From Liolophura sinensis (lineage: Eukaryota; Mollusca; Polyplacophora; Chitonida; Chitonidae): a DNA stretch of 64,000 bases. The notes under the pieces were generated by a model that made no database searches, had not been told where the DNA came from, and worked only from the letters and a program-made list of their open reading frames with translations. The DNA is taken from assembly GCF_032854445.1 (NCBI RefSeq), contig NC_088300.1:63400984-63464983 (forward strand), given 5' to 3'. The stretch's first letter is position 1. The number at the start of each line of letters is the position of its first letter. Positions 3,831 through 29,377 of this stretch are shown here, piece after piece. The position numbers and the translations under genes are program-made.

Positions 3831-6716
3831 TCAAGGCGTTTTCCTGGAGCCACCTTTCAGATCCTTGTCATGGATTCTAAAAAAAACAAAGCAACATAAA
3901 AAAAAACAAAGAAAAATGTGATACATGCATAATCACCATAACTTATCAGGCTTCACTACAAAGAAATCACAAGTATATGTGCAAAACTTTTTGCAAAAGG
4001 ATGGACAAAATAATGTAGCGTAACATTTTTAATGTGAATACTGGCCATTGCTACAAAGTGTGAATTTTTAATTACCACATTAGTGCAAGCTTTATATGAA
4101 AATTTGATCAATAGTGTATAGGTATAGCATGGGAATTTGATTACCCCAAACAGTCTTCAAATGAAAGCACATATACTGCCAATTTACTGTAGGAATTCCA
4201 AATTCCCTTAATGTCAGTACATGCATTTCAAATCTCAAATTTCTCACATGCCTATAATTATTCAAAATTCCTACCCTTTTTGACAGTTATCTTCAGACAC
4301 TTCTGCAAATTTCCAACTTTCTGCAAGTTTATTTGATATGTGTTTTATCTTCTCAGTTTTTTTCTACCTTGACACTGGTTTCTGTTATATAAGTGAAATA
4401 TTATTTTAATATCGCAAAAAACACCAATCAAATAAATAATTCAAACAGGTGTTTTATGTGATACACAACAATATGTTCACTTCTAGGTTGGCAGTGAGGT
4501 TTACAGGTGAAGAAAATAAATAAACTATGATGTGCATATTTCCCTGCACTCTTCGCAAACTGAGACTGATAGTTGTTTTTGGAATATCTTACCTGAGCAT
4601 AGCATGGACACATGGAAGAAGTTCCTCCAGGCAGTACTCAGTCAAGGTGTCCAGCCTGGCTGGCCAGGTGGGGGTCAGCTGTAGACAGACCCGTGAGGCG
4701 GCAATGCATGATGCCCCAACCATAGATGGGGAGTAACTCCGGAACATATGATCTGCAAATACATGCCAGTAACAATAATGGTGACTAAAAAGTGTTAAAG
4801 GCAAGAGTAAGAAATGCAAACATATCCCTGATTTACAAACACAAAGAAACATGTGTACTGGCCAATTCCTTAATGAAATAAATCTTTCAGAATGGAAGAG
4901 ACTGAGTGGGTCTTAAAGACATGGTAATATCATTTCCACAAAGTCATTTCCAACTTAAGTAAAAATGTGAAATTAAACTTTGGCCACCTGATCGATGCTA
5001 TCTTAATAAAGTTAAAACATTTTAAAACGATGAGGTTTTAAAATCTTACTTAAGTTACAAATGACTTTGTTTTCATTTTCACAACATTTTAACTTAAGGT
5101 GCTATAAGTACTTTCTTACAGCAACTTTACACTGTAACATGTCTGTAAGTCAGTATACTAGTGGTGTTTTTAACGTGTAGAAGTAGTTTATTGTAGCAGC
5201 AGAATATTTCACATTGTAATGGTTTATCTGTATTACAGTCTATATAAAGACACAGTACAGTAGACATCAATTTGATGGTGTTCTTCACTCATTGCACATA
5301 GTATGTCATTTGATTTACTAATTTATTTATTTATTTGATTGGTGTTTTAAGCCACACTCAAGAATATTAAACTTATATGAAGGCAGCCAGCATTATGGGG
5401 GGGAGGAAACCCACGACCGTCCGCAGGTTGATGGCAGACCTTCCCACATATGAACGGAAAGGAAAACACCATGAGCTGAACTCACAGCGACCACATTGGT
5501 GAGAAGCTCTCGGGTCATCATGCTGCGCTAGCGTGCCAGCAATCTGAGCCATGGAGGCCCCTAAGTCATTTGAGCAGGAAAATAAATTACACTGTAATGA
5601 TATGTCTTTGAAGTAATCTGCGTAGTTGTTCACATAGAGCGTCATGGCTTCTGTAGACTGTATGGGGATTCCCTCATACAGGTCTCCCGGGGCGACACAG
5701 CTGCTGCTGTAGTAAGGAACAAAGTGCGCTGTTGTTGGTTTAATCACATTCCATCTGAAGAAGTTCAGAATAGCAAGTTCCATCTCCAGGAACTCTGACT
5801 TGTGGTAGAAGGAAGGGAGTCCTGGCTTCATGGGAGGAGGGATGAATGAGTTCAGTACCTCCACACCTGGCACATGGTCACAACATTCTTCTATTTTAGC
5901 TGAAAAACAGAAAAAGATTTCACTGTAGATACATACATGTATATTTTTGTTGTTGTTAAATTCAGACGAAAAAAAAACCAAACACACACACACAAAAAAA
6001 AGAGAGACATGCAAATAATACTGCTCTAGATGATATTCATTATTTATACTGGAATGTTGATTTTTTCCTTTTTTTTCTGCTGTTGCTATATAATAAAGCC
6101 ATAATCAGGAACTTTTAACATAAGCGATGCCAGCCAGTATATTATGAGGTAAGTAAACTAGAGTAAAGTGTAGTTGTTTTTGATTCCACCCAAGAGAGTT
6201 TCACTCACACCTACATGATAGCAATAAGATTAATCAGTGAATGAAGGATACCTGATAGAACCATCACAATTTACCAAATTTGCCAAGATGGCTAGCCTCC
6301 CAGCGTGGCACAATGACCCAGGAGCCTCTCAACAGTGTGTTCACTGTAAGTTCAAGTCCAGCTCACGCTGGATTCCTACAGTGCATAGACACATGATTTA
6401 TAAAGTTTATATACAGATTTTTTGTTTACATACCAGCAATAGTTAGACAAGTTAAAGCTGCTAGGTGAAGCTGGCTGTACTTCAAATCAAAAACACCTTC
6501 CATGTAATAATCCAGCAGGTGAACTGCCAGGTGATACGTTGTCTGCTGAATGTTCAGCTTCTCACGGATGATGGCCAACCAATCCACTAGAAACGTCCGT
6601 GAAAAAATATGTGGGCTGAGTCCATAGTACGTGGGGATATTCTTTTCCTTCACCCTAAGCATGTTGTGGATATCTTGTGACAATGGGTCCTTCCACCACT
6701 GACCTGGCCCGGCCAT
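3831..6716 (-). CDS. CCNJ: Cyclin J
   Basis: Cyclin-box protein of the cyclin J family, presumed to regulate a cyclin-dependent kinase; in Drosophila it acts in the ovary. Four coding exons on the minus strand join in frame: 6716-6434, 5899-5591, 4752-4593 and 3876-3831 (798 nt, 265 aa). Exon 1 has the family start MAGPGQWWKDPL and, with exon 2, forms the N-terminal cyclin box (HLAVHLLDYYM, LHLAALTCLTIA). Exon 2 carries MELAILNFFRWN and TAHFVPYY. Exon 3 completes the C-terminal cyclin fold (SMVGASCIAASR, LTPTWPARLDTLT). The last exon encodes only IHDKDLKGGSRKTP, which matches vertebrate sequence just after the cyclin fold. The long tail of vertebrate cyclin J (human about 370 aa) is absent. 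All introns are GT-AG. A SINE sits 29 nt inside intron 2. Start chosen by homology. Confidence 0.92.
4383..4438 (+). mobile_element. SINE family A tail fragment
   Basis: Only the 3' end remains: tataagtgaaatatt, then caccaatcaaataaataa. It lies in CCNJ intron 3. Confidence 0.6.
5318..5562 (-). mobile_element. SINE family A beside CCNJ exon 2
   Basis: Nearly complete copy in CCNJ intron 2, in the same orientation as the gene. The tail is at 5318 (atttatttatttatttgatt), followed by the core and a tRNA-like head ending ctgagccatggaggcccc. Its head ends about 29 nt from the exon 2 donor at 5590, so it is the first sequence the intron contains. An open frame that runs from CCNJ exon 2 into it is an artefact. 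Confidence 0.88.
6296..6378 (+). mobile_element. SINE family A head fragment
   Basis: 3'-truncated copy in CCNJ intron 1: caatgacccaggagcctctc, then a B-box-like gttcaagtcc and agctcacgctgg. The core and tail are missing. Confidence 0.7.
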
Positions 6717-6754
6717 GGTCAGCCCATGATAATGTGCAAACCGTGTTCGGCATT

Positions 6755-7890
6755 CTGCAACAAAATAAACTACTGATAATTACACACACATGCAGTCATC
6801 AATAAACTAGAATGCATATGTATATATATATATATGTATATATATAGGTATCACTGGCAGTGGTGTATGCAATTAAAGGACATTTGAAAATCTGCCAGAT
6901 GAAGTCCACACCACTGACATTGCGAATGTAGCCTTCATTTATCTGATCTTCAAATATCGCCATAATTAATGTGGCAGGTAAATATAAGAAATTGTTGAAA
7001 ATAGACCTGAAAGTTTAACATAGGGCCTAACATTACTGAATTTGGTTCTATTTGTCTCAGATATAACTACTGTAATTCTTCAACCCTTTCACATATTTGC
7101 CAGGTGTATATTCAAGCATTCTTGTGTGTAGACTGACAAAATTATACTGAAATCTGCCAATGCAGTTTTTTTCCAAAATCAAATTAACGATATGCATAAA
7201 CTGCACTGAAAGCTGTTCATTCAGATGAGAAAAGGTTGAGGAATTAACCCACTATGCAACTATATCAGGTTGTTTGATATTGCTATGATCGACATTTTCA
7301 ATTATTCACCTGGGTTAGTGAAGTCAGTGGTCTAAAGAGACAGATGTATTTGTCCACACTGACACTTTTCGCATCTTTTTTTTTTCTTCTATTTAAGTAT
7401 ATTACCAGCCATAAATATTATTTTTTATGGCAAGTTATTTTTCTCAGGTCATCAATATCTATGTAATTATGAAAAAATCTACTTGTAACTGTTTTCTTCT
7501 CAAAGTCAAATAAATGCATACGGCATATGGCATACGGCCATCGATGAAATTACGCAACGTGTTATGTTTTTATGACCTACAAAGACGCGTGTACAGAAGA
7601 AAACTGACGACACATACAGTATTAAGAAATTCTCAGAATATATAAATTCTTCTTCACACCGTTCACGAACCATGCAGATCCAAAAAAGTTCTCTACAATC
7701 CGGGGACAATGAATCACTTTAACAATCCTTGTTGTGCAATACCGCTGAGAACAACTTCTGGCAACTTACTTTACGCATTTAGCGCCCTTTTCCGCGAAGA
7801 TAACTCGTCTTTCCCAAATGTTTTGAGATGGATAGACTGGCTTACCTCCCCTATTTCACTCAGCTTTGACTGAGAGCTCAACGAACTCAT
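6755..7890 (-). other. CCNJ: CCNJ 5' non-coding exon, leader intron and possible uORF
   Basis: The first coding exon of CCNJ is preceded by a good acceptor (tttattttgttgcag, ending at 6755). The best matching donor upstream is gggag/gtaagcc at 7846/7845. If these are joined, the leader contains a 26-codon uORF that starts at 7890 in the 5' exon, reads through the junction in frame, and ends with TGA at 6721-6719, two bases before the CCNJ ATG. The splice is inferred, not shown. The promoter should lie just above 7890, facing WDR1. Confidence 0.45.
7070..7248. mobile_element. Short inverted-repeat element (MITE-like), copy 1
   Basis: Begins ctgtaattcttcaaccc and ends gagaaaaggttgaggaatta, which are near-perfect terminal inverted repeats. 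The interior has no coding sequence. It is one of four similar intronic copies (others at 22901, 41300 and 47735). The layout fits a non-autonomous DNA transposon. This copy lies in the inferred CCNJ leader intron. Confidence 0.65.
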
Positions 7891-8965: not shown

Positions 8966-11900
8966 ATGGGAGACACCGAAATCGTGCCAAGTATGTATAT
9001 CTTCACATATACCCCAACTTTCCTCCGGAACCTCCCTTTTTTCTGAGTCTCTCGCTGAACTCTCGTTACTCATTTGTACAAGGAGCTAAGCACTGTGTAT
9101 GAGTCTGTCTGGGATGCTACTGCTGATGTTGTTGTTGTTTCAGCGGTGATATATATATGTATATATATATTTATATATGAGCTGATATATGGTGTAGAGC
9201 TGGAAACATTTGTTATTATCATTTAGCTTAGTTCTATCGTGCGCCCAGCTTATCGGAAAAGCTGCCGGATTACGCACATTCTGAGCCAGCTTACCTGGCC
9301 TTGTTGATCCTCGGAAGAGCATTGGTTGATGTAATAAGGTGTTTATTTACGTTCAAGTTGAATGATTATCCCATTCAGAGTTAACTTTATTGAACTGTTC
9401 CCTTCACTCACCCGGTTCAGTGTACCCTGAATGTGCCTTTAATTACCTGTTTTAATTGAGAGCTTTTCTGCATTTATTTTTGCTATGTAATTACAGTCTG
9501 GTGTTGGTCGCGTTACTGTATCAGTTAGTCAAATTACATGCTGTTAGTTGAGTGAAAGGATTGGTAGGTCCGACAGCAGGCCCATTTGTACCTATAGTTA
9601 GACAAAAGGAGGCAGGATTTAAAGGAATAAATCCTGTATTTACAGTATTGACCCTGATTGGCTAATGGCTGTAGGGTTTTCTGGGATAAACCATGCAGCC
9701 TTGGTCACGCTTGAGTAAATCTGCCAAACCTAAAATTCAGCTTAGGCTAGACATTACCTAGACATGACTAGATCTTTCACAGATCAGAATCGACATCCGT
9801 ATTCCTTTAAATGAATGGAGAACACGGAGAGCCTTCATATGAAGGTCACCTAGTGTTTAAAAGTTTCTGATGACCACAAAACCCCAAAATTTCCAAGTTT
9901 ATGTACTGGTACTGTTGGTGGGAGGAATCCAGAGAGAGCCTGGGGGAATCCCATGGCCATCTACAGTTTGCTGAGAGACTTTCCCGCATATGACAGGTAA
10001 GGAAGCCAACATGAGGTGGGTTTGAACTCACAGTGACTGCATTGGGAAGAAGTTCCTGAGTCATAGTGCTGCCCTAGCATGCTAAGCACTCTGCCAAGCA
10101 CATTTACTTATATGACTCTTTAAGATGTCAGGATAGAGGAAACTGGTGAACTGTACCCCATGAAGTTACCGGAAGGAAACAGGCCGAGGTCTATGTCAGT
10201 CCAGTGCATTGAGCTTCATTGTTGAAGATGGACACGATCTTTATTCATTGTTCAACATGTTAAAGAACTTGCATGTAAGTCATCTGAATTGAGGCAGAAT
10301 TTAACAGACACTTGTGCTTTTCTTTTCTTTGCAGAATGCATATTTGCTGCCTTACCACGAACAGAGCGTGGAAGAGCGATAGTTATCTCCCCTGATCCGA
10401 AAAATAAAAACTACCTGTATACAAATGGAAACAGTGTCTATATCCGAGATATTGAGGTAGGCACTACATGTGTATGTTATACTATACAAAGCAGGTCTAT
10501 TGGAGTTCAGCACAGTTTACAAAGCACTTAAATATTGTTTATATCACAGGTTCATTCATAAGATTGCCATAGTATGGATGAAATATGGCTGACTTGGCAT
10601 TAGGCCGTAATCATTCATTCATAGGATTTATGTGATGTCCACATGCAAGAGTTTCTCTTTTATTCATTTACATTGGGTTATCATGTATTCATTCTCTTCT
10701 GTTTTATCTGAATAATATTATCAGCTTACTGAGGTCATGGTCTTATTGGACATGAACAATTCTGGTTAGCACAGTTTACAGTGGCAGTGTCCCCTCTAAA
10801 ATGAAGTATATATCAGATGTATTTCAAATTGCATTTATTGTTTTGTTTGTTTGGGGTTTTTTTGTGAGTAAAATTGTTAAAAGATCAGATTCTGTGGTGG
10901 TTTGTTGTGACCCACAAGGTACCAGTTGCGTCACATGATCTATGCTCAAGGTCAAATCAGCGAATGCATTCATAGATCTACATGTATTTTGAGTGATGAA
11001 ATGTAAGAGTATAATGAGTGTTAAGTAGCAAAGACCTTATGTGACGCCACTGGTCTTATTGTGGTCAGAAAAGGCCACCATAGAATATAATATTCCAATG
11101 CATTTTACTAGATTAAACAAATTGTTAAAATATAAATCCAGCCATTTTCCTGGACAGTTTTTAATGGTGTATCATTTGATACTTCATTTTAGTGTTTTCT
11201 TTGCCCTTAGAACAGGCCTTTGGCACCCCTTGTAAGAGATTCCCATGTACTGAGTCTAATGTACATTTGGGTGTATCCATTATTGATAACTGCTGGATTC
11301 TTCTGTCATGTGTCTGTGGCTTACAATTTGTGAAAGTCTGTCACATGTAAATGTTAATAATGTAAGAGTAGAAAATATAAAGATCAAATAATAAATAAAT
11401 GTATTCGTATGAATACTCATCAAAATCCGGTCTCATTTTCTTTGCAGTTAGCCCTGTATCTTTAGCCCTACGTGAATTCACTTAGCTAGCAAGAGTTATT
11501 TCTTTATGATATCTGTCCCAGACTGAATTATGTTATGCATTGTTTCTCCCCAGAACCCAGCGATTAGTGATGTCTACACTCAACACCCTGTCCAGGTCTT
11601 AGTGGCTAAATATGCACCCAGTGGGTTCTATATAGCATCTGGAGGTGAGTAGGTGTACTGAAATGTGTGATGTTAGAGGAATAGTGGCTGTTGAGATTAC
11701 ATTGGGGTTTAAAAGTGACCTGAGATTACCTTTGGCATTAAATGTGACCTGAGATTACCTTTGCTGGTAAATGTGACCTAAGTTTACCTTTGGCATTAAA
11801 TGTGACCTGAGATTGACTTTGGCATTAAATGTGATGTTAGACATATTAAGTATATTGTGTAAAATATTTGATGTTGTTGTGTGAGTAATGGTTAAAGGAT

Positions 11901-14900
11901 TACCTGAGAAATGTTTGTTGTGATGACCTGAGAAATGTTTGTTGTGATGACCTGAGGAATGTTTGTTGTGATGACCTGAGGAATGTTTGTTGTGATGACC
12001 TGAGGAATGTTTGTTGTGATGACCTGAGAAATGTTTGTTGTGATGACCTGAGGAATGTTTGTTGTGATGACCTGAGGAATGTTTGTTGTGATAACCTGAG
12101 GAATGTTTGTTGTGATGACCTGAGGAATGTTTGTTGTGATGACCTGAGGAATGTTTGTTGTGATGACCTGAGGAATGTTTGTTGTGATGACCTGAGGAAT
12201 ATTGAATTTGATGACCTTAGGAATGTTTGATGTGATCAGCTTAGTAATGTTTGATGTAATGACCAGAGTAATAATTTATGTTTTGACTGTGGTAATGTTT
12301 GAATTGATCAGCTTAGTAATGTTTGTTGTGATAAACTAAGTAATAATTGATTGTAATGTTTGAAACGATAACTGGAGTATTGTCTGATTTGATTTGATGA
12401 TGTAGGTAATGTTTTGAGGTTATGATCTGCGTAATGTTCAGTGTGATGACCTGAGTAATGTTTGATGTGCTAACTTGAGTAATAATTGATCTTTTGACCC
12501 GGGCAATGTTTGAAGCGATGAAAGAGTAATGTCAGATTTGATTATGTGGGTAATGTTTGAGGTGATGACCTGAGTACTGGTTGATGTGATGACCCAAATT
12601 ATGTTTAACGCGATGACCTGAGTACTAGTGGATGTGATGACCTTACCAATGTTTGATCCGATGAACTAGGTAATGTGTGATGTGATGACCTGAGTAATGT
12701 TTGATGTGATGATCTGGGTCATGTTTAATGTGATGATCTGGGTCATGTTTGATGTTATGACCTGAGTAATGTTTGATGTAATGACCTGAGTAATTTAATT
12801 AAGATAACGCAACTACTGTTTAATGTGATGGCTGGGGTAATGTGAAGACCAGAGTAATGTTTGGTGTGATGACCTGAGTAACGTTTGGTGTGATGACACT
12901 AGTAATGGTTGTTGTGTTGACCTGAATAATGGTTGATGTGATACCTCAGTAATGTTTGATGGACTGACCTGAGTAATAATGGATTTGGGCACCTGAGTAA
13001 CGTTTATTATGGTATATAATACAATATGTTGTATCATGACCATTAAGTTAACTATTATTCTGTTGTAAGCGAATAGAAACTGTCCTTCAAATTTTAACTA
13101 ACACAACTGGGTGGTGAGTCTGATGATAGATATATCTTATCCTGTGATTACATGTCCCTGTTTCTACTTTATTTTGCACAAGTAAAACATGACAGTTTGC
13201 ATGTTTCCTAAAATAGATGCCTACAAGTGTATGTTCTTTGTACCCTGAGAAAATGTTAGCTCTCACAATAGCACTGTTATTTATTGCTGCTAGATAGCAG
13301 GAAACAGGTTGACTCTGGCTGTAGCCATACACTGAATCTAGTTACACTGTAAGGAACTAATATGTATTAATGGTCCAGACCAAAATACATGTACACGGGC
13401 AACTGTGTGATTGGTACATGTAAGTAATCCAGTTTACATGAAGCTGACATAGGCCAAATGTAGTCGTTTAAAGTCCTGTGGCTTCAGCTAAAGACCTCCC
13501 CAAGCCCCCCCCCCTCCCCCCCAAAGAAAAAAAAAAACAATCTGCAAATCCTACCATGAGCTATTTTAGAACATTTACCCCTGCACCTGGGGAACACTAA
13601 TCAAAGTGTGTTCTTTCTCTTCTACTATCATGTGACTACTATACATGTACATGCATTTGACCTAAAATTTGACCAAAAAGCAATTTTAGAGGAAGACATA
13701 AAGGTTATTAATATTAGTTTTGGTGCTGAATTTGCTTTTCTTTCCCTGGGAGAAGATCATCCTTCCATAAAAAAAAGTGCCAAATGCCTTTCCAACAATC
13801 AGTAAAACTGTCAGAATAAATCAAAATGAGCAACTTAATCAAGGACTTCAGTTGAGGTCAGCCACAGTATGTAACACAATTTTTAGCCAGTAATAAAACA
13901 TAAAAGTTGTGGAGCGTCTGTTTCTCAGTTTGTTTATTAAAGTCTTTAATATACTTTGTATGACTATAATTAATGAACACTTTTCTAACATGATGTAAAA
14001 CTAGCTGTGAACAACGGGACATTACTGCGATCTGAAGTTGAAAAACACTGATCATTTTCCATGTGTTAATTATTATTTATTTTGTGTTATTTTTAAGTAT
14101 TATTTATTATTGGTAATGGGTTCAAATCTGAAACATTGCATTCATTTCTGACTCAAGGATCCGTGGGCAGATGTATTTTGTACAGGACATCTGTACATGT
14201 ACATGTGGCTTTTAGCACCATAAGATGACTCGATTTACAGGAGATAATAAGGCACAAGAAACTGAAGTTTGTGAAGTGGGACCCGATCAGCTGGTTTAAA
14301 TGACATTAATCTATCATGTCCACAGAAACATTACATTTATTTACATTGTACTTGATGAGGATGTTGATCTCAGAAAGTATTCATTGTCAGATTCTCGTGG
14401 GAAGATTCGTATCTGGGACACAACACAGAGGACCCACTTACTGAAGTATGAGTACCAGCCCTTGGGCGGGTCTATCCGGGACATAGCCTGGTCACCTGAC
14501 AGCAAGCGTATCGCTGTCGTGGGAGATGGCAGGGAAAAGTGAGTCGTAACCTCTGTGATGTTTTTCCTTGTTAATTTGCATAGACACATTGACGTATATG
14601 TTCATGTAATATGCAGTTATATGAGCTGTTACAACAAGGGTGTGACTGTCCTTTACTTACTGACCACATTGCTTTGAGGCAATTTTAACTGCAGCAGGTA
14701 TGCAGAATATAGAAAACTAATGAAACATGATTAGATTATTATTTGGAATTATATGTTCTTGTGTGGGTTTGGGTGTCAAAAATAATCAAAGTCTATGTTA
14801 GGTTTATCTGAAACAAATACTGCAGATACTGTAGGAAAGCAGACCCGGAGAGTTAAAGAGCAAAACAGCGCCTGGCGAAAATATACTTCAGTTGAAAGGA

Positions 14901-17900
14901 GGATAGTCAAGCTTTCTAAAAAATATCATACTTTGTTGTCTTAATGAGATTTCACGGAATAACATGTGGCACAAAATGACAATAGGGGCCTACTGCTCGA
15001 GGCAGCCATCTTGAGAACACGTTGCTATCAGACTGCGTGACCTAAGCTGTGTCGTAGCCTTTACCCATTCACTCCATGAAGTGACATAATATCACAGAAC
15101 TACTACATAAACCATGATTTTGAGATTGTTTACAATGATTTATTTACGTGTAGCCAAATGGCCATTTCACAGTTTTTGTGGGACAGGTCAGTGTCATTTG
15201 CCTACCGCCTCAGACCCAAACCACATTCATCTCCCCAGTAGACCTTTGGCCTACGTAGACACGCTGTTCAAATTATACCAGTGCCACAGATAAGGGGCAT
15301 TCAGGCATAAATACGCTTAAAAAATTAGATGATCACTTATTAAAACGGGGCATACTGTATACGGCCGAAGATTTTTGTGTAAGCCTAAGTTCCTGAAAGC
15401 AAGCGTACATGTGAGATTTAAACCGGACAGTCCTGTCAAAATCAAGAGTAAATCTCCACAGCGAATCATGCGCTGGACGTTTTCCACTATGTGTTAGTTT
15501 TTACACTTTCTAGACTACAGCAAAAGCTCATCTGCCACCACCCACAGCCATGGAGAATGCCTACCTTGACATTTGTATTTGTGAGTGTCTGCCACGAAGA
15601 AGATGTAGCAAAGGGTTAAAATTGTATTTTTGGTTACTATACTGCAGTTTCTGCTTCTGTATTGCATAAAATTATCCTAACATCGCTTCCAATTGTCTGC
15701 TTTCGATTCCCCAGTTCCTGACATACACGTACCTATGATTTCGTGAAGAGGGAAGCTAATGCAGTGGAATAAAAAATATCACCAGAACAGCGAGCAAGAT
15801 ATGCACAGAAACACTTTATATTTATACTATTTTCTTCCAAAAATTAAAGCACAAAATAATAAATTCTTCTTGTCTAATGTTAATTCTAAATTTGAATTTA
15901 GCCTATATCAGTAACCGTTTTATCCTCTTTTGATCCAAAGATGGCAGTTGTCAACAAGTTTGTACGGGCCAAGAAATGTTTAGACAGGTAAAAGAAAATT
16001 TACCGGCTGCATCAGGCAGGTTACCATAGAAAAAAATAATGCTGCATCCTCTGCTATCAAAGCATAAGGAATGAAAAGTGCAGAATAAAATTACCAGTGA
16101 GTGGGTTGTTGAAGTGAACCTCACACAGGTTGATGCGACATAAATGTATTAACTTCATTCAAATTTATTCCTGTAACTGAAGAGCTGAAATAATTCCAGT
16201 TATTACTGGTGACCCAAAATAGTGAAGCATGGAGTATTTGAAAAAGAGTACGTTCTGCAGTATCACTTACTTGGAAAGTCAGAAGTAACGTACTCTCTCT
16301 CTTTCGAGGTCGGGAGTACCATACTCCTTCTGACAAAAAGTTATCAGTAGCTTTGTATGCAGATACATTTTTTGTCGTTCATATTAGCGTTTAGTCAGCA
16401 TACAGTTGCAAAATAACGAATATCCAAGTCAGTGAAAAACTTTTTTAGGGATGCCGGAGGTTTATGAGAATGAGAAGACTGCATCTCATCAGACAATGCT
16501 TAAAATTAATTACATCGTATGATGCAATTTTTTTTCTCTGAATTTAGTTGAACTGAAGAATTTAAATTTTGTCCTTTGTCTTTCTCACATACAAGGGATG
16601 TTTTTTTTTAAATTTTCTTTTATAAAATAAAGTCACGGAAACGCCATGTTTAAGCCCAGGTACTTTCTCTGACATCCGAGATAACTAGGTCAGCCCAGCT
16701 GTCATCTTAGAAGCCAAGACAACAAAATTAAAGCATAAAATCCAGCGACAGTCACATGTCTAGATTAGTCTCAGTGGTGCTTAGATTTATTTCCATTTAT
16801 GTCAGGATTGAGCATGAATCCAGTTGTACAACATACAACAATCCTATAGTAACTCTCTAAGCATTTAATAGGGGTCAGAATTAACGGTACCAGCACTACC
16901 CCTCCAGAGGCTATAACCAAAACCAGTAATACCCCAGCAGTGCTTCTGCGGGCTACTCGTAAACTGTGTAGACGATATAGTAGGTCTATCGTATGAACAG
17001 TTCAAACAGTGGAAGAAATATCCTTCTATATGCAATTCTGAGAAAGCTATTTATCACTTGGTCCATGACTTTAATCTGCCCTAGCCTGTTGCTTAGACTC
17101 TTACACAGGAAATACCTTCAACGTTAGAGAGCTAGAACAAACGTGACATCACCATGCTGGCGATAATGGAGATGCGCTGAAGCTGTGACAGGATTTCACT
17201 AAACTTTTACTGAGTTGCAAAAAATGTATAAAAATGTTCAATGCCGGTTTAAGATACTTTGAATGGACATTTTTCAGTGGACATAAACATTAGTCAGGTG
17301 CTGTCTTTCACTTCAAGCTGCGACACAATTATTACTGTGAGATTGCTGTGTTTTCATAATGACGTAGTTCAAAAACTTGCATATTAATCTTCTAATTATG
17401 AATTAGCCAGTATATAATTGTGTTGTTTCTAAATTAGGCACTGTAAAAAGAGCATACATGTACGTATGATAGGTGGTATGGTATTCAGAGAAAAAAATTG
17501 AAGGTTCTGATCATAAATTTCGAAGATAACATTGTGATCTTGAAAATTTTTTTTTATATAATCTAGCTCAAAGGGATGCTTTGTTAAAGCTGCTAAGTCT
17601 GTGAAATTTGTGTAAACATAAAAACATGTTTTTTTGTCTAATTTAATACCGCTTGATTAGTTTAGCGTGCAAACATTTTGGAGCTTGAATATGTTCAGGA
17701 AGTAAAATGGCTCTGGGTATTGCCCTGGTATTGTACGCGGATGTACATTGAGGTGTTTTGTTTTCAGATATGCCAGTGTGTTCTTGTGGGACACAGGGTC
17801 GTCTGTGGGATCAATGGAGGGTCACTCAAAGCTCATTAACTCTGTGGACTATAAACCCACTAGGCCGTACCGAACTGTCACTGCCAGTGAAGACTTCAGA

Positions 17901-20900
17901 CTCTGCTTTTACGAGGGGCCACCCTTCAAATATAAACATTCCATGTCGGTAAGACTTCAGCTGTAAGATATCCCTCAATATGCCAGAATGTTAAATAAAA
18001 AGAAACAAACACAAGTCTGGCAGCAACCTGCAGATGGTTGAGAGTTTCCCTGGGGCTCTACCGGGTTTCTCCCACTTTAATGCTAGTGGTCATCGAATAA
18101 GTGAAATATTCTCGAGTATGGTGTGAAACACCAGTTAAATAAATAAAGCATGAATTTTCCAGATAATTTTCAGTATGGTTTCATCAGATTATTTCATTGC
18201 TTTAATACAATGATTGCCAAAAAAAAAAATAACAGCAGTCTCGTCCGATCCCAAACCAGTATCTGTGACCAAAGGGTCCATTATTCATTACCTGACCGCT
18301 GATCATTAGTTGTTGTTGCATGTTTACTGAGTTATTCTCTTTGAGGCATACTGATTTGCATGACTTATGACTACCTGTTCATTGTGTGACTGGGTCAAAC
18401 GTTGTTACCTACAGGATCACACAGCGTTTGTCAACTGTGTGAGATACTCCCCTGACGGAGAGAAGATCATCTCAGGTGGCTCAGATGGCAAGGTGAGTGT
18501 GTACATGTAAGTGTATAGCTGTAACTCTCTATATGGAGGAAGCCCAAATGTCAGTTAGGCTGTTAGAAAAGGGTGATCAAACTGTGAGGAAGGGTTCGGC
18601 ATTGCTGTCAGAAAATGGTATTAAAGCCACTCTGTCAGAAAAGGGGTAACAAAGCCACTCAGTCAGAAAAGGGTTACCATCTGTAAGAAAAAAGTTCCCC
18701 TGGATGTCATTAAAAGATTAGTGTCTAGATTGGTTATTTATTCATAATTAGCTACCCCTGTATACATTGTTAAATTGAGCGTAAAAAAAATATTAGTCAA
18801 AAGTACTGTAATTTGAGTAATATGGCATTAAAATAGCTAGATAATGAGGCTGGGTTTATACATTTTTTTCCGCCAACACTCGGTAGTTTCTACCGAATGA
18901 TATCATACAAGTCCAACCTTTCCTAGCTGTTAGAGATTCGCCATTTCCCACTAGCTGTGTCTCTTCTGGACCAATGAGTGAGCTTCTAACAAATGTAAGA
19001 TTTTTTTTCAGTATTGCCTTGGTTAAATGCAGGAATATTACTTCCCACAAACAAATTTTTGAAGTGAATCCACTTGGGGAATAGAATGATATTTATTGTG
19101 AAGAGGACAGAAGGAAAGAATAGGAAATATTAAATCTGATGAAATGAAATGTAGATACACAGTATAACACAGGATAAAGCTATAGCTTACCAGTATGTAT
19201 TGCTTTGTTGGAAATGTCTGGACAAAGATCAAAATTCAGTGTCTCAAAACTCGCATTCTGAAGTCGGGCCAGAGAAGTCAGTGTCATAAATCAGAACTTC
19301 AGCGTCGCACACTATGGGGTAAAATTGATGTTTGCAGTATATTTGCTTCTGTGTAGCTAGAATTCAGCTCAAAAGTGACATCGTTTTGATACGAATTCCC
19401 AGCTTATATAGACTAGCTAGTCTTGTGTTGGCCTCTTTGACGTCACCTGCTGAGCGTTACTAGGGGACTGGCTGGAGATCAGTTAGGGTAGTAAATCTTT
19501 TGTTTTGATGGATTTAAAATCATAATTACATTTCTCAGAGACTTTCCTGTTAAACTGGTTCCCCTCTCTGTGAGAAAAGGGTTATCTTCTGTAAGAAAGT
19601 GGTCAGCCTCGCAGTGAGTAAAAAGGTCAAACTCTGTGTCAGAACAGGACTGTCCTATGTAGGAAAAGGGTCAACCTCGGTGTCAGCAAAAAGTCCAACC
19701 TCTGTCAGAAAAGGGCTATCCTCCATAAGCTGGCAACCTGGCTGTCAGCAAAGAGGCGTCCTTCCTGTTGAATAAGGGTCAACCAGGTTGTTGCCTGATG
19801 TCAAGTATTATCTTACCACATGTCAGAGTTTATGTGCAAGCTGCAATAGTGTCATTAAATACATTTGCAGTCAAGTGGCCAGGAAGGCCCGCGTTTGATG
19901 TGTATAATGACGATACCATCTTAAGCTGTAACATTTTGTTGCTGTAAAAGTTACTTAGACTGAGGAAAGGAGGAAAGTAAATATGGACCAGATTTTACCA
20001 ATTCATTGATGGGAGATCATATTTTAAGTATGAAGAGCATTTATGGTTGAGTTCAGCTTGATCCAGATTGATTGACCAGATTTGGTCGCCTGTTCATTTC
20101 AAACTGAATGTCAAGAATTGTATTTAGTTATTTATTTATTTGATTGGTGTTTTACGCCGTACCCAAGAATATTTCACTTACATGACGGCGGTCAGCATTA
20201 TGGTGGGTGGAAACCGGGCAGAGCCCGGGAGAAACCCATGACCATCCGCAGGTTGCTGTCAGACCTTCCCACTTACGGTCGAAGAGGAAGCCAGCATGAG
20301 CTGGACTTGAACTCACAGCGACCGCATTGGTGAGAGACTCCTGGGTCATTATTATAATTATTATCATAAGAATTATAGGTTTCAACCAAGTACGTTTGAC
20401 GATAATTGACATGGATTAGGTGATACCCTGTCTTTATAGTGAACATGTACAGTCAAGTAATCCATGCCAAATATCATGACATCTAAATACTTGTTTTCCC
20501 ATCACTGCTGATGGTGTCATTGGTGAAGTGTACTTGATATCCTATAATCTTTTGCAATATTTCCAAGGGTATAAGATATCTAGATATTTAGGTATTCATT
20601 AATAACGTGTGATTTATTTATGTACAGAATGTATAAACTACCATATATACAGCTGTTTCTGATGAGACCATTATGCCTGTACAATCAAACCAGTGCTCTG
20701 TACAATCAAAACCAGTGCTCTGTACAATCAAAACCAGTGCTCTGTACAATCAAACCAGTGCTCTGTACAACTTGCACTCCCTTTAATGTGTGCCGTTTAT
20801 TTCAGGCTTTTGTGTATGATGGGAAGAGTGGAGAACGTGTTGGGGAACTGGGCAGTCCGGCACATAAAGGAGGCATATATGCTGTGAGTATATACACCGA

Positions 20901-23900
20901 TAGAACTCATATTGACCTCAATATGCACATTTTACCCTTTCAAATGTATATATAAGTATAGATAAGAACTGTTCAGTGTGAGTTTTTGTTTTTTGTGAGT
21001 TGTTCTCATGTACATTGCAAAGTTTGTTGAAGTGTTATAGCTTGAGGAAATACCATGTGTAATATAGTAGCTGGTAAATCATTTAACTGACCTACCCTTG
21101 ATGATCATAAATTTCGTCCATGACTAATTAGCCCATTTTACCTGACCCTGAGAGTTCTTTTTATTTTAGAAAAGTGTTTTGAGGTTTTCTTGGAGCATGG
21201 GGTAATATTTTATTGATTTTCACCGTCAAAAATAATATTTTGTGACATTTACTTGCCTCTAAAAATGCACTTTTATTGATGAACCAGGGTGACAAAAACC
21301 ACACTCCAGTGACACCTTCGCTTTATTACTAACGATTCAACCTGATTGACACTTAATGTGTGTTTATTTGAATTCCTGGAAACCTGAAGTGCAGGATCAA
21401 ACCCGGTCCAGAACAGAAAAGTGAACAATTCGTGAATGTGGTGTTAAACAATAATTAAATAGATAAATAATGAACTGTGTCCTGTTGTCCTTAAACTAAA
21501 AGTGATATTATGGTTAATACAGTTTTTGTATTCACATATTTCTTGCTTATGATTGTGTTTGTTTCACTACCAGGTGAGTTTCAGCCCAGACAGCAGCCAG
21601 GTGCTGACAGCCTCAGGTGACAAATCTGCCAAGATCTTTGATGTGGCCTCAGGGGAATGCGTTGTGTAAGTATGAAGGGACAGATTTCTGAATCAAGGGT
21701 GTTAAGCTTGTTCCCTGTTTCCTGTGTGCTCATCGATGAAGCATTTGCTTGAATTCCCAACTAGGGCCTCCGTGGCTCAGTTGGTTAGCGCGCTAGCGCA
21801 GTGTGAAACCCAGCATTCTCTCACCAATGCGGTCGCTGTGAGTTCAAGTCCAACCCAAGGCCTCTTCTTCTCGGGCCATAAGTGGGAAGGTCTGCCAGCA
21901 ACCTGTGGATGGTTGTGGCTTTCCCCCGGGCTCTGCCTTTGTTCCACCCACCATAATGCAGGCCGCCATCATATAAGTGAAATATTCTTGAGTACGACAT
22001 AAAACACCAACCATATAAATAAATACATTCCCAACCATTGAAAGAAAATATGCATGAAATAGATGGGTTATTAAGAAGTATAAAATGTATTGCAAAAGTG
22101 AGTTTTTTTGTCATTTTTTTCTTCATATTTTTCTTTCTTTATGTTTCTTAAATACTCTTTTTGTTTTATAGTACCTTTTCATGTACCCTTTAAACACATA
22201 TAAAGCAAATTAATAAATCAGTGTAGGGTTTAACACTTTCACCAACGATTCTATTCATGTGTATTATGTGGGGGTTTGCCAATTTCTATCCACGTCTGCA
22301 TGCTATTTGTGGATTGTCAAGGTTTTCTTCTCACTCTAATGCTGACCGCTGTCATAAGATAAAATATTTTTGAGTACACCAATCGGTTAATGAAATATAA
22401 TTTCCATGCTGTATGCTGAATTCTTTTTTCTTGTGCAGGGTTTTTCCAATGGGCACAGATCTGGAGTATCAGCAGCTGGGGTGCTTGTGGCAGGGGGAGT
22501 ACATGCTGACTGTGTCACTGAATGGTCAGATCAACTACCTGGACAGGAACAACCCCTCAAAGCCCCTCAGAGTCATCAAGGTAAGTCAGGGTACAACTTT
22601 CTCAAAGCTTTCCCATGAAAATATATTATCAACAGGAAAAATGGCCAAGACAGTAAACATTTACCACAAATAAGATTAATATTTTTTTTTTCATTTTTAT
22701 ACCCTCTAACGACATTGGGGAAAAGATTTATCCTGCCTGTAAAAATACAATTAAAATTGATGTCATCTTACCTTTCTTTTCCATCTTAGGCTTAAAAAAA
22801 TGATTTTTTTACTGATAATATAAGATAATCAGATAATATTTACCTAATTTTAGTTAAAAAGTATATATGTGATGCAAACTGTATCACATGTTATATACCC
22901 TAGTTCCTCAACTTTTTCTCGCATGAAAGAGCAAATTTCAGTGCAGTTTATGCACACTTATATTTCTATTCTTCTATTTCCATTCTTCACAAAAGTTTTA
23001 TTGCTTAACACAGATTAAAGCCTTCAGAATATGCTTGAATTAACAAGCTTGCAAACATGCCAAAAGGTTGAAGAATTACAGTAATTTCTCAAGTACATAT
23101 GTGATGCAAATAGTGCCATGTGTTATAGACTTGCTTGTAAAAGTTCATTCACCATTGACATAGAGATAAACTGAACATATATGTACAAGTATGTGTGTAT
23201 GACTAAAGGAGGATGACTAAGGAGGATTGCGTGTTTACAGGGTCACAGCAAGCCTATCACAGCCATGTGTATCCCAGAGGACAAGTCAACCATCTACACT
23301 GCCAGCAGTGATGCTCTCATCAATATCCTTGGACATTTCATTCAAATGCCCAAATACTATGTATTAGTGAGACAGCATAGGGCACCACCTGGCTGCAGAC
23401 CGCATGCCACTGTAGGCTACATTGTATTACCAATCAGCCTCTCAGTGTTTGCCACAAGTAATGTGAATAAGCTGTTGTATCATATTTTATTGTGACTGGT
23501 GTTTTTTTTTTTTTTTTTTTGTTTTTTGCAAGGTTTTCAAGATTATATCAGTGATTGCCTACAGACTAGTTGAACGAATTCTAGAAGCGTTCTGTAGAAG
23601 GGCAAGTGCCTAGGGGTGATCATGTAGTGAGAACCTTTACCTTGATTGGTACTTTCCATTCTCTATATTTCCATCTAGAATTGACACTGTAAATCAGGTG
23701 AACTCTTCCCAAGGTTCATGTCTACATGTCAAAGATCTGCTTTGTCATTCTCCTTAACATTCCCACATTACTGGGACCCAGTGACCGGAGAGTGTGAGAG
23801 CATAAAGGGCAAAGGTCACAGTAACCAGGTACAGGATATGGTCATCTCAGACGGGGTTCTCATCACTGTCTCCATGGACGACACAATTCGCTTCACGCAG

Positions 23901-26900
23901 GTTGATACCAAAGAATACGGGTAAGAAGGTTTTAATGTGCTAGATATTAATGGAAATACATCAATTCTTCATTAATACATTTGATCATGTACATAAACAC
24001 ATGGATGTAGTTACTGCTGCTGCCCAACCCAATCTGGACTCATTGAAATAAACACAAAGCCAGAATGTCAGATTTAATACACTGGTCTTGAGAGTGTGAT
24101 TTTTATTGATAATAAAGGGACCTCCATGGCCAAGGGGGTTAGCATCACCACAACAGCCTCTCACCAAAACAGTCATAAGGTTCAAGTTCAGCTCATCCTA
24201 GGTTCCTCTGCGGCTATGGGAAGGGCTGCCAGCAACCTGTGAATGATGGTGTGTTTCCCGCGAGCTCTGTCCGATTTCCTCCCACCATGCCTTTTAAATG
24301 AAATATTTTTGAGTATGGAGTAAAACATCTATCAAATCAATAAAGAAATAAAACTGAGACCCAAGACACAAAAACTGAGACCCAAAACAAAAACTGAGAC
24401 CCAAAACAAAAACTGAGACCCAAGACAAAAACTGAGGCCCAAAACAAAAACTGAGACCCAAGACAAAAACTGAGACCTGTCCTGTGTGCTACTGTCATTT
24501 CATGATATTCATGCGGTGACATTGCTAGCTTTGAAAATCCTGCTGGTGTAAATTATTCATTTATGAGCGTTGGATTATTATATAAGCTATATATGCGTGT
24601 TCTTTTTTTTCTCCTAGAACTGACCAGGTGAAACTGGACTCTCAGCCAAAGGCCGTAGCAGCAGCAGAAGGTGGGCTGGCTGTGGTTGCATGTATCAGTG
24701 AGGTCAGTTTTGACAGTGTGATATGTAATATATCAGTTTGATTAAGGACTGGGACTGGATCTTTCAGCTGAAGCATCACTCTCAGCCAGTTGGCTCATGA
24801 CCAGTGAGGTTTCATGTTTCAATCCAGCTTCTGCTGGTTTCTCTGAATATTTAAAGTATACATGGAAAGGAACCATATAAAACAAAGATTATGTTTCTTT
24901 ACCAAATGAAGAAAATTATCCCCTGGCATTTTTGTTAAAAAAATGTCATTTTGGTAGTATTTTTATACCTGTTAATTACCCCTCTGTATTATGCATATTT
25001 TCCATCCACAGTCAGATTTCTTCAGAAATTATGTTATCGTGGAACTCTGTGAGCCCCGTGAACTGTGTCGCCACAGTGTGGGCAAGATGACCTGAACACG
25101 CATACCTGATGGCTTCTTCGGGCCAGCTTAGCGCCCCCTCCGCACTCCTACACCTGCCCCCATTTGGTCTGTCCCCCACAAAGTTCATTTTAAACAGGGA
25201 TCATTGTTGACGTCACTGCTGCATGCACTTAATTTCCGGACTGACCAACTGGGCCTTAAGAAAACTGTACTTTGAAGCCATTTTTACCCCCAAAAGTGAA
25301 AGTTGAAAAAGTTGTCTGTACTGTTATGTTATTACAAAGGATAATCTGCACATTAAGAAATGAAACCAAAGAATTTCATGTATCCTTTTAATTATATGAT
25401 TCCCTTTGTGTAACTACTTGCACAAATTGAGAAAATTGAAAGTGCCATCATATTATCAGTTTGGATCAATCATGCATGAGTTATAACCCAAGAACGTACC
25501 ATTTTCCAAGTACGTTACCCTAACCCTGATATGCCTTCTAATGGGACATCATGTTTCCAGTTGCTTTAACATGGCGCATCTCAGGGTGTCTTCAGCATTC
25601 CAGATTAAAAGTTGATCAAAACACTTTGAAGATTAATGGGGATGAAATGTGGTCAGAAACAGTCAATATTACTGTAACTTAGCTCATCTTAGGTGACAAC
25701 TTTCATAGTGCTTTCTTTGTTGGTTTTTCTGTGGACATGTTAAGTACCTAATTGCCAAATCATTTAGTAAATAATAATGCACTCTGGTGGGAACTTGTGG
25801 TTATTCTGTAAATTTGTCTTTGTGTGGTAGTTCTGTTTCACCTGTACATCATCAGAAACAGTTCAGCGTTGTGGGTTCTTTTTGTGCTGGTTTCTATTTT
25901 GTTTTATCTATTTTGTTTTATCAGGTTGTAGTTTTCCAAAACAAAAGGAAGGTGTTTACCCAAAAGGTGCCTTATGAGCCATCCAGTGTGGCGATTCACC
26001 CTGGCAAGACAGAAGTGGTAGTAGGGGGTGGTCAGAAGGTAAGTGAAAAGGGGGATGTACCTACACCTGTTGTTAGTGTCTCACATCTCAGCCCACCCCA
26101 CCCAGACAGAACAGAGGGGTCATAGGTTAAGTGAAATGGGAGATATATCTACATCTGTGTTAGTGTTTCACATCTCAGCACACCCAGACAGAACAGAGGG
26201 GTCAGAGGGTAAGTGGTTAGGGGGGTGTACCTACACCTGTGTTAGTGACTCACATCTCAGCACACCCAGACAGAACAGAGGGGTCAGAGGGTAAGTGGTT
26301 AGGGGGATGTACCTACACCTGTGTTAGTGTCTCACATCTCAGCCCACCAGACAGAACTGAGGGGTCAGAGGGTAAGTGGTTAGGGGGATGTACCTACACT
26401 TGTGTTAGTGTCTCACATCTCAGCACACCCAGACAGAATAGATGGGTCAGAGGGTAAGTGGTTAGGGAAATATACCTACACCTGTGTTAGTGTCTCACAT
26501 CTCAGCCCAACCAGAGAGAACAGAGGGGTCAGAGGGTAAGTGAAAAGGGGGACGTACCTACACGTGTGTTAGCATCTCACATCTCAGCACACCCAGACAG
26601 AAGAGAGGGGTCAGAGAGTAAGTGAAAAGGGGGATGTACCTACACGTGTGTTAGCATCTCACATCTCAGCACACCCAGACAGAAGAGAGAGGTCAGAGAG
26701 TAAGTGAAAAGGGGGACATACCTACACGTCTGTTAGCATCTCACATCTCAGCACACCCAGACAGAAGAGAGGGGGCAGAGAGTAAGTGAAAAGGGGGACG
26801 TACCTACACGTGTGTTAGCATCTCACATCTCAGCACACCCAGACAGAAGAGAGGGGTCAGAGAGTAAGTGAAAGGGGGATGTACCTACACGTGTGTTAGA

Positions 26901-29377
26901 GTAAGTGGTTAGAGGGATGTACCTACACCTGTGTTAGTGTCTCAACATATCTTTGGAGGAGGTGACGTTGTGGAGGCTTTATTTGTCAGGGAGCACTACA
27001 TGCATGGCATTGATTAATTGAATATTTTCAACTTTGCTCTACCTCAGGAGTATTACAGTTATACATAGATTGTTTGGACATGGTATTCGTAAGGACAAAG
27101 CATAATGACAGGTCCCAAATTATAGCAGCTTGAAACATTTCCCGTTTTCACTTGAAGTGACCTAGTTCAAATGTCTGAAGAACACCTTCATGATCAAGCT
27201 CAGTTTGTATGTTCCACAGGTAAATGGTATTTGTTTTGTTACACTTTTAGGATATGGCTATCCATGTGTATGAGTTGAACAACAACACCCTGGTGGAGAA
27301 AACTGACGTGGAGTTGAAGATGGGAGGTCAGATAACCGATCTGAAGTATTCACCTGACGGTGCTTACCTGGCTAGCTGTGATACCAACAGACGCCTCACT
27401 GTCTTCAAGATGCCTTCCTATGAGGTAAATAAGAACTTGCTTGCCTGAGGGTAGAGGTAGACGAAGAAACAGGCAGCCTTGTTTCAGCATCACCTGTGTC
27501 TGACATTATGTATGTAATGTTAGGCATTTCGGTATTTGGGAAAAGCAGCGCAAGAATATACTGGTCATGCAATAACTGCTTTGAGTTGGTATCCATACTA
27601 TAACTGCTGCAAGCTGGTATCCATGCAATAACTGCTTCAAGTTGGTATCCATGCAATAACTGCTTCAAGTTGGTATCCATTCAATAACTGCTTCAAGTTT
27701 GTATCCATGCAATAACTGCTTCAAGTTGGTATCTATGCAATAACTGCTTAAGTTGTATCCATGCAGTAACTGCTTCAAGTTGGTATCCATGCAATAACTG
27801 CTTCGAGTTGGTATCCATGCAATAACTGCTTAAGTTGTATCCATGCAATAACTGCTTCAAGCTTTATCCATACAATAACTGCTTCAAGTTGGTATCCATG
27901 CAATAACTGCTAAAGTTGTATCCATGCTATAACTGCTGCAAGCTGGTATCTATGCAATAACTGCTTCAAGTTGGTTTGTATCTGTGTTATAACTGCTGCA
28001 AGCTGGTATCCATGCAATAACTGATTTAAGTTGGTAGCCATGCACTAGTTGAATCAAGTTGGTTTCCATGCTTTAAATTGCCTGATTTTGCCTAAATTTT
28101 AGGGGAAATTCATGCCGCTCAAATCAAGTTTGAAAACTGCCTTGCTCCTTGTATACTTCTGCATATTTAGTGTAGGATATAAATTATAGACTTTCTAAAA
28201 TTATATCTGTGTATTTTCTTGTATGTTCACTCAGATATATCTTTGGTAACAAGTTAACTTGGAGTCAAACAAGATATTTATTTATTTATTTGATTAATGT
28301 TTTATGCCATATGGGTACTCAAAAATATGTCACTTATATAACGGTGGCCAGCCTTCCTATGTATGGCCGGAGAGGAAGCTAGCATGAGCTGGACTTGAAC
28401 TTACAGCAATTGCATTGGTGAGAGTAAACAGGAAAGAGAATTGGCTTGTTTGAATATATCCTTAATATTGCACATGTATATTTACACAAATCTGTGTTTT
28501 GTAGCAATTTTACCAGGGCACTCATCACACGGCTCGCATCAACAGTGTGGCCTGGACCTCTGACTCGGCCCATCTAGTCACTGGCAGTCTGGACACTAAC
28601 ATTATAGTGTGGAACATGAGCAAGATGGCCTCTCCATATGTCATTAGAAGTAAGTCCAATACTCTGCATGCAGTCTACATTCCTCAGTGCCAAGCGTCAG
28701 AGTGTAATTTTGACAGAATATGAGGTTTCTAAGGTTACAGTATCATAGCAACATGTTGACATCCCCCTGTGGCATATCACTTCTTGTTTCAAGGCATATT
28801 AAGGCATGTTTGTAGTTCAACATATGCTTGAATTAAACAACAGTGAAAGTATCCTGTAAACTGGATCTGAATTATGTATTTCAGTATAATTTGGCAGAGT
28901 GCAAAATGGAGAAATACTGCTAGATTTTGCTGAACCTTAAGTGTAATACATGTATCTACAATATTATTGTGCGTCTCTCTCAAGAATTAAGTGTTTGCAA
29001 TACAGTCAATCCAATACATTGTATAATGAGGATGAGATGCGTTGGAGCTGTGTCCATTGTCCTGCTACACGTGCTACACTTTAACGTGACCCAATGTCTT
29101 AGTTATAAGTAGAATTAGCTTGGTTGTTGGTATTCTTATTCCAGTGCTCATTCCAGAAAGAGACTTAGGAGTATGAAGCTATTAGCTGGCAAGGACTGTG
29201 TTTGCCTTTATACTTCATTCATCTCCATGTCACAACTACGAATGTTTGAGTATTTTGTTTTCTGCTACAGGTGCTCACCTACAGAGTAACATAACCCGTG
29301 TGGCCTGGATAACGGATAACACAGTGGTGTCCGTGGCTCAGGATAGCACTGTGCGTCAGTGGGACATAGCCCACTAA
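8966..29377 (+). CDS. WDR1: WD repeat protein 1 / actin-interacting protein 1 (AIP1)
   Basis: Works with ADF/cofilin to sever and disassemble actin filaments in the cytoplasm. Sixteen exons join in frame (1818 nt, 605 aa; human protein 606 aa): 8966-8990, 10335-10456, 11554-11644, 14391-14538, 17768-17948, 18415-18492, 20806-20883, 21574-21665, 22439-22580, 23241-23322, 23767-23920, 24618-24702, 25925-26038, 27251-27424, 28505-28649, 29271-29377. The protein should fold as two seven-bladed WD propellers. Typical blade ends are [47 protein letters not shown] and the C-terminal TVRQWDIAH. Strongly conserved blocks include [21 protein letters not shown] and [12 protein letters not shown]. Fourteen introns are GT-AG; intron 10 is AT-AC (U12 class). 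The N-terminal 8 residues (MGDTEIVP) come from a short first exon and are less certain than the rest. Confidence 0.96.
9905..10090 (-). mobile_element. SINE family A, truncated
   Basis: Reverse-oriented core and head in WDR1 intron 1, with no recognisable tail. It contains ggtgggaggaatccagagag, ggaagccaacatgag and an inverted B-box-like region (tttgaactcacag). It is strongly diverged. Confidence 0.7.
11700..11840. repeat. 29-bp tandem repeat, WDR1 intron 3
   Basis: About five imperfect copies of a unit containing gtgacctgagattacctttg and gcattaaat. It shares the tgacctgag word with the longer 24-bp array that begins 40 bp further on, so the two may have a common origin. Confidence 0.75.
11880..13012. 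repeat. 24-bp minisatellite, WDR1 intron 3
   Basis: Unit gatgacctgaggaatgtttg plus ttgt (24 bp). About a dozen near-identical copies lie at 11900-12200, and the array then decays over another 800 bp into recognisable but mutated copies (gatgacctgagtaatgtttg and variants). The homogeneous left end and diverged right end suggest recent expansion on the left. Short open frames across it come from the period being a multiple of three. Confidence 0.9.
14539..17767. other. WDR1 intron 4, nothing recognised
   Basis: A 3.2-kb GT-AG intron between clear WDR1 exons. I see no SINE, no convincing inverted termini and no coding frame with known similarity. Its base composition in 14860-17200 is more mixed than that of the other introns, so an old unrecognised insertion is possible. 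Confidence 0.4.
18012..18148 (+). mobile_element. SINE family A, 5'-truncated
   Basis: Core and tail only, in WDR1 intron 5: cagcaacctgcagatggttg, then gtgaaatattctcgagtatg, then ttaaataaataaa. Confidence 0.78.
18550..19775. repeat. Degenerate gtcagaaaagggt repeat split by a spacer
   Basis: Two blocks in WDR1 intron 6, at about 18550-18700 and 19555-19775, consist of irregular copies of a unit with gtcagaaaagggt followed by variable pyrimidine-rich sequence. About 850 bp of unrelated sequence lies between them, as if an element had inserted into one older array. Confidence 0.55.
20122..20350 (-). mobile_element. SINE family A, WDR1 intron 6
   Basis: Reverse copy with tail tatttatttatttgattggt, a well-preserved core (cattatggtgggtggaaacc) and head down to ctcctgggtcattat. 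It is close to consensus and so probably young. Confidence 0.88.
20684..20772. repeat. 22-bp tandem repeat upstream of WDR1 exon 7
   Basis: Four copies of accagtgctctgtacaatca plus aa, ending about 35 nt before the exon 7 acceptor (20805). It therefore overlaps the region where the intron 6 branch point is expected. Confidence 0.85.
21767..22024 (+). mobile_element. SINE family A, full length
   Basis: The most complete copy in the window, in WDR1 intron 8. The head is gcctccgtggctcagttggt with tagcgcgctagcgcag, then B-box-like gttcaagtcc, core, and tail gaaatattcttgagtacgac with caccaaccatataaataaat. The tRNA-like promoter boxes show its RNA polymerase III origin. Confidence 0.92.
22305..22398 (+). 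mobile_element. SINE family A tail fragment
   Basis: Degraded 3' end in WDR1 intron 8: ctcactctaatgctgaccgc, then aaatatttttgagtacacca. It ends 40 nt before the exon 9 acceptor. Confidence 0.55.
22901..23081. mobile_element. Short inverted-repeat element (MITE-like), copy 2
   Basis: Begins tagttcctcaactttttctc and ends aaaaggttgaagaattacag, in WDR1 intron 9. It is flanked on both sides by related ~38-bp sequences (tatatgtgatgcaaact... at 22863 and catatgtgatgcaaata... at 23097). Confidence 0.65.
23323..23766 (+). other. WDR1: U12-type AT-AC intron (WDR1 intron 10)
   Basis: The 444-nt intron begins ATATCCTTG and ends TTCCCAC. The minor-spliceosome branch motif TCCTTAAC lies at 23751-23758, about 9 nt from the 3' end. 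All three match the U12 AT-AC consensus (ATATCCTT, TTCCTTRAC, YCCAC), with at most one mismatch each. The splice joins exon 10 (ending ...GATGCTCTCATCA) to exon 11 (starting ATTACTGGGAC) through a split Asn codon and gives [12 protein letters not shown], which matches the WD blade in other AIP1 proteins. No GT-AG pair restores this frame. Confidence 0.93.
24116..24352 (+). mobile_element. SINE family A, diverged
   Basis: Forward copy in WDR1 intron 11 with a degraded tRNA-like head (gggacctccatggccaaggg), B-box-like gttcaagttc, core and tail (tgaaatatttttgagtatgg). The A-rich end runs directly into the following 19-bp tandem repeat. Confidence 0.8.
24350..24480. repeat. 19-bp tandem repeat next to a SINE tail
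   Basis: About seven copies of aaaactgagacccaaaaca-like units. The array starts in the A-rich tail of the SINE at 24116-24352, and may have grown from it. Confidence 0.85.
26032..26935 (+). repeat. ~82-bp minisatellite containing copies of the WDR1 exon 13 donor
   Basis: About eleven units, each beginning with a version of ggtcagagggtaagtg and continuing with ggggatgtacctacac, ctcacatctcagcacaccc and agacagaacagaggg. The first unit is the real exon 13/intron 13 junction (ggtcagaag/gtaagtg at 26038/26039). Later units keep an intact gtaagt at about 81-83-bp spacing, except the second (gttaagt). Reading from exon 13 into the array meets a TAG within the first unit (near 26127). Confidence 0.92.
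27560..28075. repeat. 28-bp minisatellite, WDR1 intron 14
   Basis: About 18 imperfect copies of a unit containing gcaataactgcttcaagttg and gtatccat. Shorter variants (taagttgtatcc) are interspersed, which suggests unequal exchange. No coding value. Confidence 0.88.
28268..28428 (-). mobile_element. SINE family A with internal deletion
   Basis: Reverse copy in WDR1 intron 14. The tail (tatttatttatttatttgat) and head side (gaggaagctagcatgagctg) are present, but most of the core is missing between ggtggccag and ccttcctatg. Confidence 0.8.

Follow-up and report, generated by a model that had tools for sequence, protein, structure and literature searches.

Organization of the WDR1 gene and its surroundings

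The window, by which the whole 64-kb stretch of DNA analysed here is meant, carries on its plus strand the WDR1/AIP1 coding region (8966..29377), which extends from ATG to TAA over 16 exons encoding 605 amino acids. The exon edges and the start codon of this gene model were placed by eye and by homology, without RNA. The identity of the gene as WDR1, already proposed in the preliminary description, is supported by a phmmer match to the WDR1 chain 9qfq_P (E 1.7e-207, residues 7-604 of 605) and by a further match to the AIP1 chain 1nr0 (E 5e-135), homology to known AIP1 proteins being found along the full length of the 605-amino-acid model. These two chains are presumably those of human WDR1 and of C. 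elegans AIP1, respectively. The model comprises 15 introns, 14 of which have GT-AG ends, and the remaining one, intron 10, has AT-AC ends.

Intron 10 occupies positions 23323..23766 of the plus strand (444 nt), as established from the sequence, the gene model and the scoring of junctions. Read directly from the sequence, it opens with ATATCCTT and closes with CCCAC, giving the terminal dinucleotides AT...AC, and contains TCCTTAAC close to its end. The opening octamer corresponds to a candidate U12-type 5' splice site (23323..23330, plus strand) and the internal one to a candidate U12-type branch site (23751..23758, plus strand), both assigned by pairing with snRNAs, whereas the 3' splice site CCCAC (23762..23766, plus strand) is assigned from the sequence. 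In the gene model, exon 10 (23241..23322, plus strand, 82 nt) ends in ...GCTCTCATCA, encoding ...SDALI followed by base 1 of Asn347, while exon 11 (23767..23920, plus strand, 154 nt) begins with ATTACTGGGAC and supplies bases 2-3 of Asn347, followed by YWDPVTGE. The intron is therefore in phase 1 at codon 347, dividing the Asn of INYWD 1/2, and the alignments show that INYWD at this junction is common to the mollusc protein and chain 9qfq_P, in which this Asn is residue 352. There are three registers in which the intron could be cut to yield an identical mRNA, only one of which provides AT...AC ends together with ATATCCTT. The intron boundaries and terminal sequences given in the preliminary description are thereby confirmed, as is its exact in-frame join through a split Asn codon. 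Its claim that TCCTTAAC lies 9 nt from the intron end holds for the motif but not for the distance, since 8 nt separate the motif from the end and it is the second A of the motif that stands 9 nt from the last base of the intron.

Several other features were observed around this intron. Tandem-repeat-like stretches were recognized by eye in WDR1 introns 3, 13 and 14 (window positions 11880-12230, 26040-26900 and 27590-28050), and look-alike dispersed repeats, likewise recognized by eye, occur in WDR1 introns at 20130-20345, 21760-22020, 24115-24330 and 28270-28430, some of them carrying a CAGCATTATGGTGGG-like core. On the minus strand of the window, an open frame at 6426-6779 contains a Cyclin N-terminal domain and may resemble cyclin J, and another at 49489-49767 contains an ENTH domain, perhaps belonging to an epsin-like gene. 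The same strand holds a Met/Gln-rich frame at 42671-43189, which matched no Pfam family at E 0.001, as well as a weak reverse-transcriptase fragment at 59530-59814 (20.2 bits against a Pfam cut-off of 29.6). Elsewhere in the genome, at G000:C8:37880506-37891931, eight consecutive matches to the hemocyanin domain PF14830, each over the cut-off, were found in open frames of 429-529 amino acids, with none of the 14 control genomes being positive. The PF14830 domain is not known outside molluscs, and eight units in a row is the arrangement of an eight-unit molluscan hemocyanin gene; on this basis the animal is regarded as a mollusc.

Signals of intron 10 and the minor spliceosomal snRNAs

The published U12 consensus consists of /RTATCCTTT at the 5' splice site and UCCUUAACU at the branch site, with the scoring of the latter covering positions -40 to -5 (PMC2846911). 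The 5' site of intron 10 at 23323 conforms to RTATCCTT of this consensus, and TCCTTAAC provides the UCCUUAAC pattern near the 3' end. The animal's own U11, U6atac and U12 snRNAs proved complementary to the intron, as read from both U11 matches, both U6atac matches and the three strongest of the five U12 matches. The AAGGA of U6atac pairs in full with positions +4..+8 of the intron, the 5' end of U11 pairs with the same positions with one U-G at +4, and nucleotides 18-24 of U12, numbered from the Rfam match, pair fully with TCCTTAC of TCCTTAAC, leaving one A bulged out. The sequence signals, the gene model, the snRNA genes and the base pairing of intron 10 are what the analysis shows.

Searches of the whole genome with Rfam models, in which 40-49 candidates were scored per search so that the counts are lower bounds, returned at least five matches to U12 (four over the Rfam cut-off), at least two each to U6atac and U11 (all over the cut-off) and at least one to U4atac (over the cut-off). 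For each of these four models, none of the 14 control genomes was positive; the controls, of which the one named is an archaeon, serve as a specificity control only. The same approach applied to the 64-kb window gave no match at gathering cut-offs. Among the protein components, the PDCD7 (U11-59K) domain was found in two pieces in the genome and in none of the 14 controls, while the zf-U11-48K model gave four matches in the genome but also one positive among the 14 controls, for which reason it is less specific, weak evidence for a minor spliceosome and is given little weight. The searches indicate that the host possesses a minor spliceosome, and a relative enrichment of minor introns in molluscs has been reported (PMC10639083). 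With textbook sites in the intron and minor spliceosomal snRNAs in the genome, the AT-AC U12 signals recognized in the preliminary description are borne out. Four of the five U12 matches are located within 18 kb of one another (G000:C1:65318678-65336263), and two members of this cluster are far weaker (54.0 and 52.2 bits, compared with 127-132), perhaps as decayed copies.

The description of AT-AC introns as a small minority even among U12 introns was overstated, as in human approximately 26% of the minor introns belong to the AT-AC subtype (PMC10639083) and the ratio of GT-AG to AT-AC ranges from 3:1 to 1:1 across the U12DB genomes (PMC2831892). Compared with U12-type AT-AC introns, intron 10 displays no departure that was found except a fairly pyrimidine-rich 3' end, pyrimidines accounting for 75% of positions -23..-4, a stretch that is partly the branch site itself, and for 62% of positions -45..-17, whereas U12 introns are said to be without a pyrimidine tract (PMC2846911). 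Across five of the 15 WDR1 introns, intron 10 included, the pyrimidine content at -23..-4 varies from 40% to 85%.

AT-AC introns spliced by the major spliceosome do exist (PMC2831892), and intron 10 might have AT-AC ends while being spliced in this manner, like SCN4A intron 21. However, the sodium channel AT-AC introns of the major spliceosome have a G at +5 (PMC2831892), whereas the +5 position of intron 10 is a C that forms part of a complete ATATCCTT, and the intron also possesses a complete U12 branch site 8 nt from its end. Splicing of intron 10 by the major spliceosome was rejected on account of the C, instead of G, at +5, and is considered highly improbable.

Taken singly, the two octamers are not rare in the window. 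ATATCCTT occurs three times on the plus strand and once on the minus strand, and TCCTTAAC once on each strand, the Markov-1 expectation for either being 1.5 per strand. The full set, in which ATATCCTT is followed by TCCTTAAC no more than 5 kb on and by AC 3-14 nt later, occurs once on the plus strand and not on the minus strand, compared with a chance expectation of 0.05 per strand derived from 60 Markov-1 simulated 64-kb sequences. This sole set sits exactly at the junction fixed by protein homology, and the scan of both strands for AT-AC sets revealed no second one in the window. Other U12-like donors and branch motifs are also present in the window, including ATATCCTTAATATTGCAC in WDR1 intron 14 (28456-28473), where a U12-like donor overlaps a U12-like branch motif in mid-intron, probably by chance.

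Placement of the junction between exons 10 and 11

All in-frame, stop-free junctions between exons 10 and 11 with GT-AG, GC-AG, AT-AC, AT-AG or GT-AC ends were enumerated, with donors at 23242-23599, last intron bases at 23400-23920 and introns of at least 60 nt. Among the 586 junctions obtained, the AT-AC junction 23323/23766 received the top score against the human WDR1 segment (191), the runner-up (177) being another AT-AC pair that entails four extra residues. Scores of 162 and 149 were obtained for the best junctions of the GC-AG and GT-AG types, respectively, both of which insert or replace residues; nearby junctions of these two types were rejected on the basis of their lower scores and altered residues.

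The junction could nevertheless be wrong, either because a nearby GT-AG pair is used or because the assembly contains an error, and the enumeration formally leaves 585 alternatives that are likewise in frame and free of stops. No support for such a reading was found, and the lower-scoring GC-AG and GT-AG options argue against it. It is further opposed by the rest of the WDR1 gene model, which is open and matched end to end, and by a 701-base query, which was located at one place in the assembly with 100% identity, the only other match reaching 73% and covering part of the intron. A wrong junction, of either origin, is scarcely credible. A protein search of the genome with exons 10-11 (E <= 0.001, with 13 of 13 candidates scored) matched only the two exons of WDR1, so that no further copy of the region, whether a paralogue or one lacking the intron, came to light, an absence that does not amount to proof. 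A 21-base pattern at the intron 10 donor has a single occurrence in the genome, the absence of others again not being proof, and the exon 10-11 segment matched no NCBIfam family. As judged from the sequence, WDR1 intron 10 is almost certainly a genuine AT-AC intron of the U12 type.

Predicted consequences of splicing and comparison with human and mouse WDR1

In the proposed mechanism, U11 and then U6atac would bind ATATCCTT of intron 10, and U12 would pair with TCCTTAAC in such a way that the branch adenosine bulges, after which the minor spliceosome would remove the intron and exons 10 and 11 would be joined inside the Asn347 codon. Splicing of intron 10 in vivo, its execution by the minor spliceosome and the age of the intron are points that we infer.

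Retention of intron 10 leads to a stop at 23493 after 403 amino acids, even though its length is a multiple of three. Among the five exon skips tested, four (exon 10, exon 11, exons 10+11, and exons 9+10) produce early stops, while skipping of exons 9-11 together is the sole in-frame bypass, keeping the frame and leaving 479 amino acids. Given the early stops that follow retention and four of the five skips, full-length WDR1 mRNA should need the intron 10 splice. The main consequence would be the dependence of this mRNA on the minor spliceosome, because an early stop follows whether the intron is retained or one or both of exons 10 and 11 are skipped.

These early stops can also be taken in favour of a regulatory function, according to which intron 10 would act as a brake whose slow, U6atac-limited removal sets the WDR1 level and couples minor-spliceosome activity to actin turnover, an explanation that accepts the U12 identity of the intron and differs on its function. 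In the preliminary description, too, splicing of this intron was proposed as a possible limit on AIP1 output and so on actin turnover. In human cells, hundreds of genes with minor introns are suppressed when U6atac is limiting, and p38MAPK raises the U6atac level (PMC3728624); a rate-limiting removal of minor introns was suggested by Patel et al., as recounted in PMC3584512. Mice carrying a splice-donor mutation in intron 9 of Wdr1 show lowered amounts of the protein as well as defective turnover of actin (PMC5023164), and Wdr1 splicing can therefore be limiting when damaged. On the other hand, the sites of intron 10 match the consensus perfectly and give no hint of weakness, and the normal level of U6atac is sufficient for another group of minor introns (PMC3728624). 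The preliminary description attributed slow splicing to U12 genes in general. In human control cells, minor introns differ in this respect, 81 of them (36%) being poorly spliced and others sufficiently (PMC3728624), so that slow splicing of any single intron cannot be taken for granted. A regulatory brake is regarded as unlikely, and the more probable reading, held with reasonable confidence, is that of an old intron which is constitutively spliced. Very doubtful is the broader proposal of an ancient switch conserved in animal WDR1 at INYWD, in which U6atac-limited removal would tune the AIP1 level together with actin turnover, while the autoinflammatory rd mutation of the mouse would damage the donor of the same intron.

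The rd allele of mouse Wdr1 carries a T>A change at base 2 of the donor of intron 9 and concerns the same gene as intron 10, with the damaged splicing of Wdr1 lowering the protein and impairing actin turnover (PMC5023164, PMC6698799). The designation of the mouse intron as intron 9 is numbering alone, implying neither orthology to intron 10 nor U12 type.

Literature searches for WDR1 together with the minor spliceosome yielded PMC12637451 as the sole relevant paper among the matches listed, and those for actin-interacting protein 1 together with U12 yielded nothing relevant; exon positions of human or mouse WDR1 were likewise not found among the matches listed. Text matches to WDR1 in PMC11039992 and PMC8531310 were rejected, as the words found there were WDR11 and WDR19, which share the same beginning, and none of the terms WDR1, WD40 and actin was matched in PMC2426677.

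Human WDR1 is included among U12-intron-containing genes in Table 2 of PMC12637451, a preprint on lupus neutrophils (FDR < 0.2), where it appears in parentheses and, according to the flattened column order, belongs to the MXE entries for HC NDG versus SLE NDG. This listing goes part of the way towards answering the question of the intron's age raised in the preliminary description. It is the same gene as that of intron 10 and, by label, has the same class of intron, although the entry in this table is a gene label only, without intron position, subtype or sequence. Shared ancestry of intron 10 with the U12 intron of human WDR1 is likely, and intron 10 is probably old. Because human WDR1 is already listed among minor-spliceosome genes, intron 10 is real but ordinary, and it enlarges the set of catalogued minor introns by one clean molluscan case. 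Should the U12 intron of human WDR1 turn out to occupy the same codon, this position would be older than the split between molluscs and vertebrates, and defects of the minor spliceosome would be predicted to affect actin turnover throughout the animals.
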